Shown here: positions 29,981 to 33,440 of the stretch, in pieces
Position numbering within the stretch: position 1 is the stretch's first letter
How the letters are laid out: each line of letters opens with the position of its first letter
Assembly: GCA_902505605.1 (NCBI GenBank)
Contig: CABWKN010000008.1
Location: forward strand, 1 to 33,443
Direction of reading: 5' to 3'
Length of the DNA stretch: 33,443 nt
From: Candidatus Guanabacterium sedimentis
GTDB lineage: Bacteria; Acidobacteriota; B3-B38; Guanabaribacteriales; B3-B38
Made by a program: the position numbers and the translations under genes
Notes under the pieces: model-generated
Database searches by the model: none
Told to the model about the DNA's origin: nothing
Seen by the model: only the letters and a program-made list of their open reading frames with translations

Positions 29981-30919
29981 CTAAATCCTTTCCCCCACCC
30001 GCAGTCTGGCACTGCGGCATGGGGGGTTTTCCTCTATCTCCTCTGGCGATGGTCGGATAGGCTTGGAGGTAAGGATTCTGAGTATATTCTTCGCCCCGCA
30101 GCGACACTCGGGAAGCGAAGGGGGGCAAATGCAGCGACCACTCAAGCTCCGGAAAGCCTCTTTCACTATCCTGTCCTCCAGAGAGTGATAACTCAGAATG
30201 ATAAATCTGCCCCCCTTCGCTAATAGGGGAGCGGAGCTGAGGATAAACTCTCTCAGTCCTTCCAATTCTCTGTTTACCGCTATACGAAGCGCCTGAAAGG
30301 TTCGGGTCGCCGGATGTATGCGGTAAGGGGGAGAGGTGGGTACTACCCTGGTTATGATGTCACGAAGCTCTGAGGTGCGACTTATTCTCTCTTTCTTCCG
30401 ATGCTGGACAATAGCTCTGGCAATCCTGTTCGCCCACCTCTCCTCCCCAAATTGACGCAGTATCTTTGCCAGCTCTCCCTGAGAGCGGAGATTTATCAGC
30501 TCCTCGGCAGTCTCCCCGCTGCTGGTATCAAACCGCATATCAAGGGGTCCGTCCGCCATAAAGCTGAAACCCCTCCGGGGGGAGGCTAACTGGTAAGACG
30601 AGAGTCCGAGGTCAACCAGGACCCCATCTACCTGAGCGATCTTCTTCGCCTTAAGAATCTCTGGCAATTGCTTGAAGTCCGCGGCTAAAAGCTCTCTCCT
30701 ACCAGAAAAGCTCTTCAGCCTCTGTTCGGCAATCGCAAGCACTTCCTTGTCTTTGTCCACACCTATGAGCCTCCCCCCGGGGGATAAAAGCTTTAAAATG
30801 CCTTCGCTGTGTCCTCCTTCCCCGACTGTGCAGTCAATATACAGACCATCCCCCTTCCAGACCAGTAGCTCCAGCACCTTTTCCAGCAATACGGGATGAT
30901 GTACCGCCTGGTCAAACAT
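29981..30919 (-). CDS. rsmH: 16S rRNA (cytosine(1402)-N(4))-methyltransferase
   Basis: 312 aa: HHPVLLEKVLELLVWKGDGLYIDCTVGEGGHSEGIL...VDGVLVDLGLSSYQLASPRRGFSFMADGPLDMRFDTSSGETAEELINLRSQGELAKILRQFGEERWANRIARAIV...HPATRTFQALRIAVNREL...FIILSYHSLEDRIVKEAF. Confidence 0.98.
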   Translation of the reverse strand: MFDQAVHHPVLLEKVLELLVWKGDGLYIDCTVGEGGHSEGILKLLSPGGRLIGVDKDKEVLAIAEQRLKSFSGRRELLAADFKQLPEILKAKKIAQVDGVLVDLGLSSYQLASPRRGFSFMADGPLDMRFDTSSGETAEELINLRSQGELAKILRQFGEERWANRIARAIVQHRKKERISRTSELRDIITRVVPTSPPYRIHPATRTFQALRIAVNRELEGLREFILSSAPLLAKGGRFIILSYHSLEDRIVKEAFRSLSGRCICPPSLPECRCGAKNILRILTSKPIRPSPEEIEENPPCRSARLRVGERI

Positions 30920-30972: not shown

Positions 30973-31413
30973 TTAGATGTTCAGCTCAGCCAGACGAGCC
31001 ATATCTTTATCGGTAAGGGGATGGGCTTTGATGTACTCCTCATAGCGCTTCTTGTTCCACACCTCCAGATGCCTGACACTACCGAGCACCGCTACCTCTC
31101 CATCCATCTGAGCACTCTCCCTCAGCAGTTGCTGGATCAGCACCCGACCCTGCTTGTCCATGGAGGCCATCTGACCGAAGTAGTTGGTGCGACTGAGGAA
31201 CTTTATCTTCACCGGCTCCATTGAGGGCAGCCTGGCCATCCTTCGCATAAGCTCCATCCAGACCTCTCTGGGGTAAATCAGCACATTATCGCCGCTAAGA
31301 CTGGTCACATAGAGCTCGGTGCCGTACTCCTTCTCAATAAACTGCCGAAAGGCAGTGGGGATTTTTATCCTCCCCTTATCGTCTACCTTGGTGGGAAAAT
31401 TTCCCGTGAGCAT
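30973..31413 (-). CDS. mraZ: MraZ family transcriptional regulator, copy 1 (rsmH-proximal)
   Basis: 146 aa: MLTGNFPTKVDDKGRIKIPTAFRQFIEKEYGTELYVTSL...SMDKQGRVLIQQLLRESAQMDGEVAVLGSVRHLEVWNKKRYEEY; two DxxxR-type repeats (DDKGR, DKQGR). Confidence 0.96.
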   Translation of the reverse strand: MLTGNFPTKVDDKGRIKIPTAFRQFIEKEYGTELYVTSLSGDNVLIYPREVWMELMRRMARLPSMEPVKIKFLSRTNYFGQMASMDKQGRVLIQQLLRESAQMDGEVAVLGSVRHLEVWNKKRYEEYIKAHPLTDKDMARLAELNI

Positions 31414-31473
31414 TAACCCTTCTCCATTAACAAGTCTGTTCCCGCAATCAGAGAGGCGGAATCAGGGACGAAA

Positions 31474-31488
31474 GTCCACTTCAGTCCA
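31474..31488 (-). promoter_or_regulatory. MraZ-box-like direct repeat upstream of mraZ copy 1
   Basis: Minus strand reads GTGGACTGAAGTGGACT: two TGGAC units with exact 10-bp period, just downstream of the putative -10. Confidence 0.5.
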
Positions 31489-31494
31489 CAATCA

Positions 31495-31524
31495 ATGGTA
31501 GTATATCTTTTCCTCCTTTGTCAA
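31495..31524 (-). promoter_or_regulatory. Putative promoter of mraZ copy 1
   Basis: Minus strand TTGACA (31519-31524), 18-nt spacer, TACCAT (31495-31500). Confidence 0.55.
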
Positions 31525-31527
31525 GAG

Positions 31528-31553
31528 AAAATATTCATCAAATTGAATATTTT
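31528..31553. repeat. Perfect 10-bp inverted repeat with 6-nt spacer upstream of the mraZ copy 1 -35 element
   Basis: AAAATATTCA-TCAAAT-TGAATATTTT. Confidence 0.8.
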
Positions 31554-31624
31554 ATCTCCTCTCTTTCACCGCCGAGAGGGTCACGGGGTCACCTCATTGC
31601 TCGCTGCCGCAGTACCAGCTGCGC

Positions 31625-32071
31625 TCAGGTCTTCTGGCTGAGTTCCAGTAGCTGGGCAGAGAAGCTGTCCATGAGGGTTTTGGAGTCTGTCAGGAACTTC
31701 TCCCATCGCTCCTTGTTCCAGATCTCTATGCGGTTGGAAACCCCGATGATGACCACCTCTTTGTCGAACTGGGCGTATTCCCGTAAATGCAAGGGGATAA
31801 GGATTCTCCCCTGCCTGTCTAATGAGCACTCGCTGGCGCCCGAGTAAAAGAACCTCATGAAGTTGAGAGTTTTCTCTTTGAGGATGGAGAGCTGCTGGAG
31901 CCTCTCTTTGAGCAGGTCCCATTCTATCATCGGGAACGCCACCAGACAGAGGTCGAAGTTGGTCACTATCAGCCGGTCGTCATAATGGGACTGGAGCACC
32001 TCCCGGAAGGTGGGCGGGATGTTGACCCTTCCCTTGGAATCGATCTTATAAATATACTTCCCTTTGAACAT
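31625..32071 (-). CDS. mraZ: MraZ family transcriptional regulator, copy 2 (first gene of the dcw cluster)
   Basis: 148 aa: MFKGKYIYKIDSKGRVNIPPTFREVLQSHYDDRLIVTNFDLCLVAFPMIEWDLL...SLDRQGRILIPLHLREYAQFDKEVVIIGVSNRIEIWNKERWEKF; two DxxxR-type repeats (DSKGR, DRQGR). Confidence 0.96.
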   Translation of the reverse strand: MFKGKYIYKIDSKGRVNIPPTFREVLQSHYDDRLIVTNFDLCLVAFPMIEWDLLKERLQQLSILKEKTLNFMRFFYSGASECSLDRQGRILIPLHLREYAQFDKEVVIIGVSNRIEIWNKERWEKFLTDSKTLMDSFSAQLLELSQKT

Positions 32072-32124
32072 AAAGGAGAACCCCCTGTAATGATGTAATG
32101 CACATTACCGACTTCAATTATTAT

Positions 32125-32143
32125 CTCCCACTTTTCCCCACTC
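32125..32143 (-). promoter_or_regulatory. Candidate MraZ operator (TGGGN direct repeats, 10-bp period)
   Basis: Minus strand GAGTGGGGAAAAGTGGGAGA: TGGGG at 32136-32140 and TGGGA at 32126-32130 in + coordinates, separated by 5 nt; matches the E. coli-type TGGGN-N5-TGGGN signature. Confidence 0.65.
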
Positions 32144-32150
32144 AAGCTAT

Positions 32151-32179
32151 ATGTTACCCTCTCTCACACCCCTTGTCAA
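32151..32179 (-). promoter_or_regulatory. Putative sigma-70-type promoter of the dcw cluster
   Basis: Minus strand TTGACA (32174-32179), 17-nt spacer, TAACAT (32151-32156). Confidence 0.6.
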
Positions 32180-32396: not shown

Positions 32397-33440
32397 ATGA
32401 AGATGGGCATCCTCGGCTTCCCCAAGGTGGGGAAGACCACCCTGTTCAACCTCCTCACCAGCTCGCAGGTGGTCACCACCAAATACACCTCCGGGCTGGT
32501 GGAGCCGAATGTCGGCATCATCAATGTCCCCGACCCGCGCCTGGCGAAGCTCACCGAGCTCTTCCAGCCCAAGCGCACCATACCCGCCCAGATTGAGTAT
32601 GTTGATATTATGGGCGCCGCCGGCGGCGAGCTGAGGAAGAGCGCCTATTTAGCCAGCCTGCGGCTGAGCGATGCCCTGACCCATGTGGTGCGTGCCTATG
32701 AGGATAAGGAGATAGTCCACAGCGAGGGGGAGATTGAGCCCCAACGGGATGCCGCCCGGATGGACGCCGAGCTGATATTAGCCGACCTCATGGTGCTGGA
32801 GGGTCGGCTGGAGCGGCTGGAGAAAGACATGAAGAAGGTCAAGAGCAAGGAGGATGAGCAGGAGCACGCACTGCTGCTGCGGTGCAAGGAAGCGCTGGAG
32901 AAGGAGACCCCGCTGCGGGAGGTGGAGTTCTCGCCCGAGGAGGAGAAGATGCTGCGGGGGTTCGGCTTCCTCAGCGAGAAGCCGCTGCTGATTGTGGTCA
33001 ACCTGGGGGAGGACGACCTCTCGCATTACGACGATTACCTCGAGCACTTCGGGCTGCAGGGCTGGACGGGGAAGAAGAGGGTGGCGCTGTGTCCGGTCAG
33101 CGGCAAGCTGGAGATGGAGCTGTCGCAGCTGGAGGATGAGGAGCGGGGGGAGTTCATGAAGGAGATGGGGGTCAAGGAGCTCAGCACCGAGCGGATAATC
33201 CGCACCTCCTACCGCCTGCTGGAGCTGGTCTCGTTTTTCACCTACGCCGGGGAGGAGGTCAAGGCGTGGACCATAAAGCAGGGCACCGAGGCACTGAAAG
33301 CCGCCGGGCAGATTCATACCGACATCGAGCGGGGGTTCATCCGGGCAGAGGTGATTCCCTACGACGAGCTGATAGCCCTGGGCTCCCTGCGCGAAGCCCG
33401 CCAGAAAGGGCTCCTGCGATTAGAAGGGAAGACATACTAG
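32397..33440 (+). CDS. YchF-like P-loop ATPase/GTPase with C-terminal DUF933/TGS-like region, apparently ending early
   Basis: 347 aa: MKMGILGFPKVGKTTLFNLL (P-loop) ... EPNVGIINVPDPRLAKLTELFQPKRTIPAQIEYVDIMG...HVVRAYEDKEI...C-terminal SFFTYAGEEVKAWTIKQGTEALKAAGQIHTDIERGFIRAEVIPYDELIALGSLREARQKGLLRLEGKTY*. Confidence 0.9.
   Translation: MKMGILGFPKVGKTTLFNLLTSSQVVTTKYTSGLVEPNVGIINVPDPRLAKLTELFQPKRTIPAQIEYVDIMGAAGGELRKSAYLASLRLSDALTHVVRAYEDKEIVHSEGEIEPQRDAARMDAELILADLMVLEGRLERLEKDMKKVKSKEDEQEHALLLRCKEALEKETPLREVEFSPEEEKMLRGFGFLSEKPLLIVVNLGEDDLSHYDDYLEHFGLQGWTGKKRVALCPVSGKLEMELSQLEDEERGEFMKEMGVKELSTERIIRTSYRLLELVSFFTYAGEEVKAWTIKQGTEALKAAGQIHTDIERGFIRAEVIPYDELIALGSLREARQKGLLRLEGKTY

Follow-up and report, generated by a model that had tools for sequence, protein, structure and literature searches.

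The dcw cluster of a candidate-division-B38 acidobacterium opens with two mraZ genes of different ancestry, each behind a promoter and a pair of MraZ boxes of its own. Copy 1, the proximal gene, together with its TGGAC operator, is the inherited acidobacterial mraZ with its ordinary operator, and copy 2, together with its TGGGN operator, is an additional unit of general-bacterial type placed between ychF and the native mraZ. The explanation that we regard as the best, and as probably correct, is a cluster head of two ancestries, in which an inherited copy 1/TGGAC pair and an added copy 2/TGGGN pair form nested, autorepressed promoters. Few bacterial transcription factors are as highly conserved as MraZ, and little is understood of its biological role. 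To our knowledge the gene is nearly always single, and we found no mention of a tandem or second mraZ in the literature within the library searched. Proteins and boxes are both of the known MraZ kind; the novelty lies in the two-type, two-operator arrangement. By combining two types of MraZ with two operators that can be separated, this cluster head represents a natural experiment on the purpose of MraZ regulation, as well as one on the co-evolution of box sequence and protein.

We analyzed a window of 33,443 nt. The two adjacent ORFs that the earlier note had placed at the start of the dcw cluster are indeed full-length MraZ genes, and a profile search found two PF02381 repeats in each (73.9 bits for copy 1 and 108.2 bits for copy 2). 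The pair stands first in the cluster, upstream of rsmH, and the order on the minus strand is mraZ copy 2, mraZ copy 1, rsmH, ftsL, ftsI, murE, murF and mraY (Table 1). Residues D11, K13, G14 and R15, as well as D85, Q87, G88 and R89 (copy 2 numbering), are invariant in both copies; the hairpins read DSKGRVNIP and DRQGRILIP in copy 2, and DDKGRIKIP and DKQGRVLIQ in copy 1. Copy 2 exceeded the TIGR00242 cut-off of 98.35 bits (132.2 bits), whereas copy 1 fell just below it (87.1 bits), which fits its membership in a divergent acidobacterial type of MraZ. The MraZ fold was assigned to copy 1 by a predicted structure (pLDDT 87.2) that matched solved MraZ structures with TM 0.71-0.81 and E 2.6e-11, and to copy 2 by its sequence. 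It is the same fold as that of the M. genitalium and M. gallisepticum MraZ proteins (PMC8475190; PDB 9qlg, 9r4j and 9sz7).

Table 1. Genes, promoters and operators at the head of the dcw cluster, with positions in the window.
Feature	Position	Strand	Remarks
mraZ copy 2 (distal, first gene)	31625-32071	minus	general-bacterial-type MraZ, 148 aa
mraZ copy 1 (proximal)	30973-31413	minus	acidobacterial-type MraZ, 146 aa
rsmH (mraW), next dcw gene	29981-30919	minus	used for synteny
ychF GTPase, divergent, upstream of both mraZ	32397-33440	plus	PF06071
ftsL, ftsI, murE, murF, mraY, after rsmH		minus	names from sequence, without family scan
Promoter P2, TTGACA-17-TAACAT	32179-32151	minus	consensus match only
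Promoter P1, TTGACA-18-TACCAT	31524-31495	minus	consensus match only
Operator 2, GTGGGGAAAAGTGGGA, two TGGGN boxes, 10-bp period	32141-32126	minus	9 nt past the P2 -10
Operator 1, GTGGACTGAAGTGGAC, two TGGAC boxes, 10-bp period	31489-31474	minus	5 nt past the P1 -10

The earlier note had also described a separate TTGACA promoter for each mraZ gene and a box pair with a 10-bp period downstream of each -10, and both descriptions held. The promoters are consensus matches of a kind for which 1.1 was the chance expectation in a scan of the region, and direct GTG-core repeats with a 10-bp period are present at both of them. Loosely defined arrays, TGGR-N6-TGGR, were not unusual (9 in the window vs 8.2 expected); the strict array, GTGGRNNNNAGTGGR, occurred twice in the window, each time at a mraZ promoter, vs 0.06 expected. 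Measured against shuffles of each 300-bp upstream region, the array scores yielded p = 0.001 and 0.0025. The conserved core of operator 1 reaches as far as position 31465 (CGTCCC). Beyond the two mraZ sites, GTGGRNNNAAGTGGR had one match genome-wide, inside a nadB-like coding sequence. Likewise, a search of two genomes for a wider regulon returned, in each, the two mraZ promoters and a nadB-like coding site as strict arrays, and outside coding sequence neither genome has a strict array besides those at the mraZ promoters. Reversed-pattern controls were as frequent as strict-array matches, which leaves no basis for targets outside the dcw head. The outcome of the strict-array scan would fit a regulon restricted to dcw, like the one described for M. 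genitalium MraZ (PMC8475190).

By sequence, the RsmH of the window is nearest among named records to that of the MAG 'candidate division B38 B3_B38' (NJBL01000004.1, 93%), and a named locus identical to one of the group members (L038 = L127) points to Acidobacteriota as the wider group. Both mraZ genes (93% identical for copy 2 and 92% for copy 1), both promoters and both arrays are kept in a congener (G002), in which the -10 elements are TACTAT for P2 and TAACAT for P1. Persistence of the TGGAC pair and its 10-bp spacing in relatives, which the earlier note had set as a test, was thus borne out in the congener, and the TGGAC core also occurs in a more distant genome of the same order (G003). 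Neither mraZ nor rsmH was detectable in a third genome of the genus (G001); since rsmH is absent as well, this assembly probably misses the region and is uninformative, and the two-mraZ locus of the genus is represented by two genomes. We considered whether copy 2 might be a redundant or decaying acquisition without a distinct role, as a sister family manages without it. Nevertheless, its conservation in the congener, where the operator 2 core is identical, its score above the MraZ equivalog cut-off and the recurrence of two-MraZ heads in two other families render this quite unlikely.

The earlier note had viewed TGGAC as a changed form of TGGGN. Instead, we found TGGAC at a locus with a single mraZ of the copy 1 type in the same-order genome, which belongs to another family and has the gene order ychF / single mraZ / rsmH / ftsL / ftsI. 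Its MraZ shares 57.5% identity with copy 1 and 30% with copy 2. Its operator, TGGACAAAAGTGGACCACCGTCCC (GTGGAAAAATCTGGACAAAAGTGGACCACCGTCCC), is identical to operator 1 at 19 of 24 positions and to that of P2 at 13, compared to a mean of 11 and a maximum of 17 matching positions when P1 was shuffled. The stretch that it has in common with operator 1 is TGGAC-N2-AAGTGGAC-N3-CGTCCC, and its promoter retains TTGACA. This single-copy locus equals copy 1 in protein type, in the TGGAC-N5-TGGAC and CGTCCC core and in ychF/rsmH synteny, but differs from the B38 locus in having no second mraZ and three boxes, not two.

MraZ-type arrays were present upstream of 142 of 180 mraZ genes, vs 1.8 expected, and the 78 arrays found at 95 acidobacterial-type mraZ genes gave AAGTGGACTRAA as the box matrix of the phylum. 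The copy 1 boxes scored 14.5 and 12.3 with this matrix and the copy 2 boxes 10.6 and 8.2, the median of the phylum boxes being 10.4. Base 4 of the acidobacterial boxes, which follows TGG, is A in 61%, T in 21%, G in 9% and C in 8%. Since TGGAC is the phylum consensus and stands at a single-mraZ locus, the direction of change had been reversed: judged from these boxes, TGGAC is the ordinary flavour in the phylum and TGGGN a less usual one. Divergence of the operator after duplication was rejected on the strength of the sister locus with its single copy and of the tree discussed below. The survey further indicates that the MraZ box consists of GTGG and a next base that is only loosely fixed, TGGGN being one flavour and not the rule. 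Three boxes are present in 64 of the 78 acidobacterial arrays vs two perfect ones in each focal array, so the affinity of the focal arrays may be lower.

Phylogenetic analysis separated two sides with a support of 100/100: one holds copy 1, the single MraZ proteins of Acidobacteriota and the proximal genes of the other tandem loci, and the other holds copy 2, MraZ proteins of other phyla and the distal genes of those loci. A recent tandem duplication within the lineage, followed by divergence of operator and protein, was implied by the earlier note and would account for two genes that are adjacent, homologous and 36% identical. However, forcing copy 1 and copy 2 to be sisters was rejected under the model used (dlnL 84, p-AU 0.0001), copy 1 has closer relatives than copy 2 in the single MraZ proteins of G003 and other families, and the TGGAC operator occurs in G003 at a locus that lacks copy 2, leaving a recent duplication with hardly any probability. 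Placement of copy 2 with Myxococcota/Thermodesulfobacteriota-like MraZ gave p-AU 0.51. Since placement at the base of the acidobacterial clade (p-AU 0.39) was not rejected either, transfer of copy 2 is not proven; its origin may possibly lie in horizontal transfer or in a very old duplication that was lost elsewhere and of which it is a relic. The nearest relatives of copy 2 are distant (about 1.3-1.5 changes per site), and TGGG arrays stand upstream of some copy-2-like MraZ genes (L030 and L048).

Our survey covered 396 genomes of the phylum and, more densely sampled, one class. It revealed mraZ genes side by side in two B38 genomes, in 11 genomes of family f38 and in one genome of family f85, the f38/f85 tandem loci being L105-L108 and L165-L172. 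In every tandem pair the general-type MraZ (MF-) comes first and the acidobacterial-type MraZ (ML-) second, and rsmH was the next gene in 6/6 f38/f85 loci checked by alignment. The f38/f85 loci thus resemble that of B38 in the order of the two types, in having their own arrays and in their position before rsmH, but differ from it in a GTGT/GTGG distal array close to the ATG and in three-box proximal arrays with a mixed base 4. Their distal copies group with copy 2 with weak support (80/43), and a common origin with copy 2 is supported as weakly. The promoter of the f38 proximal gene reads TTGACA...TAGACT (TATGCT in one case), with three GTGG boxes after it, and the f38 distal array near the ATG, GTGTGGAAAAGTGGAAGAAAGTGTGGAA, is almost constant in most genomes. 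With GTGT/GTGG units in a 10-bp period, the f38 distal arrays resemble the Mollicutes type, in which direct repeats of AAAGTG[T/G] occur at the mraZ promoter (PMC8475190); Mycoplasma differs in that its mraZ is single and its box may carry T at the position after GTG, which is G in both focal arrays. Although distal and proximal operators differ in each tandem lineage, they do not differ as TGGG vs TGGA, and 14/76 acidobacterial arrays hold both forms, so TGGG/TGGA does not amount to a stable distal/proximal code.

Several side observations emerged from the survey. The distal mraZ of f38/f85 carries a nearly invariant array of three units, GTGTGGAAAAGTGGAAGAAAGTGTGG, located ~20-45 bp before the ATG; it varies far less than these genomes' proximal arrays. 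Besides its dcw mraZ, a distant acidobacterium encodes two extra short MraZ-like proteins of ~122 aa (L008 and L009, G059:C20), which are similar to each other in sequence and lie on a contig other than that of the dcw mraZ. Second MraZ genes are also present on other contigs in family f27 (L110 in G253, with N17 and a TGGG array, and L112 in G198); since the estimated contamination of G253 is 7%, these may be foreign contigs. Some complete acidobacterial genera (e.g. g34 of f20 and g69 of f31) had zero MraZ match in the phylum scan.

Co-divergence of the C-terminal hairpins (LIQ vs LIP), which the earlier note had associated with the two operators, turned out to be ordinary variation. LIQ, LIH and LIP are all present among single-copy acidobacterial MraZ proteins, G003 has LIP with TGGAC boxes, and copy 1 of the congener has LIH with the same TGGAC array; as Q, H and P occur freely, the C-terminal Q/P was rejected as a specificity change. 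When each protein column was compared with the proportion of G at base 4, residue 17 (hairpin DxKGRxXxP; K in copy 1 and N in copy 2) displayed the top raw association (R2 0.37). Base 4 is G in 7/7 boxes of N17 proteins, four of these boxes belonging to the two B38 genomes and the other three to a single further protein, and in 18/229 boxes of K17 proteins. After phylogenetic regression, residue 17 ranked 8 of 137 (p 0.0024 before multiple testing); with 3 supported independent pairs, its association with base 4 was not significant after correction for both the tree and multiple testing. A residue-17 code was suggestive in the raw data and was not upheld by the phylogenetic regression. Base 4 is mixed in 48/76 acidobacterial arrays.

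A strict division of labor, in which copy 2 would read TGGGN only and copy 1 TGGAC only as insulated loops, with residue 17 and not Q/P discriminating between the boxes, draws support from the rank of that residue before correction, from the retention of both protein/operator pairings in the congener, and from the f38/f85 loci, whose distal and proximal operators differ too and whose distal array is near-constant in most genomes. We nevertheless consider it an improbable, if serious, possibility: residue 17 loses its leading rank once ancestry is corrected for, the arrays that hold TGGG together with TGGA are each presumably read by one protein, and K17 proteins of f38 are located behind both GGG and AGG arrays. 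It is doubtful that Acidobacteriota have repeatedly set a foreign-type MraZ and its cognate operator before the native mraZ as a two-tier division switch, with the box flavours read via residue 17.

Autorepression by each copy is predicted because it has been shown for single MraZ proteins elsewhere. For M. genitalium, MraZ is reported to repress through repeats of this sort (PMC8475190), and that paper cites the same for E. coli. The E. coli protein (Eraso et al. 2014, via PMC8475190) is reported to be a dcw-head autorepressor acting at TGGG-type direct repeats with a 10-bp period, and as such resembles copy 2 and operator 2; E. coli is cited as having one mraZ and one promoter with repeats, whereas the B38 locus has two MraZ types and two arrays. 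The genes and arrays of this locus, with their conservation, ancestry and recurrence, are established by the analysis; binding, repression, co-transcription and the degree of cross-talk are inferred, as follows. Each MraZ would most likely bind the box pair past the -10 of its own promoter, in the early transcribed region, and block initiation there. P2 is expected to drive mraZ2-mraZ1-rsmH and onward, and P1 mraZ1-rsmH and onward. Since a search between the mraZ genes revealed no convincing terminator, transcription from P2 probably runs on into copy 1 and rsmH, and the cluster would be fed by two nested autorepressed promoters. Some cross-binding between copies and arrays would be expected, given the GTGG core and the 10-bp period common to the two arrays. 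An arrangement of two promoters and two repressors at the dcw head is thus plausible.

Alternatively, copy 1 and copy 2 might co-assemble in mixed rings, such that the two operators would serve as docking sites of one hetero-oligomeric regulator. Solved MraZ structures are oligomers, with many chains in each entry, and both copies probably derive from one transcript; the two MraZ types are, however, ~30-36% identical, and we regard mixed rings as unlikely. Our preferred reading remains that of two nested promoters, each repressed by its own MraZ.

Two further elements were noted near the operators. Upstream of P2, AGTGGGAAAAATGTAG (32214-32199, minus strand; AGTGGGAAAAATGTGG in the congener) begins ~72 bp upstream of operator 2 and could offer copy 2 an additional half-site; because the whole region is conserved, its conservation is no evidence for such a role. 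At the end of operator 1, GGACTTTCGTCC (31476-31465, minus strand) could fold into a small mRNA-leader hairpin, and its CGTCCC half is kept in G003.
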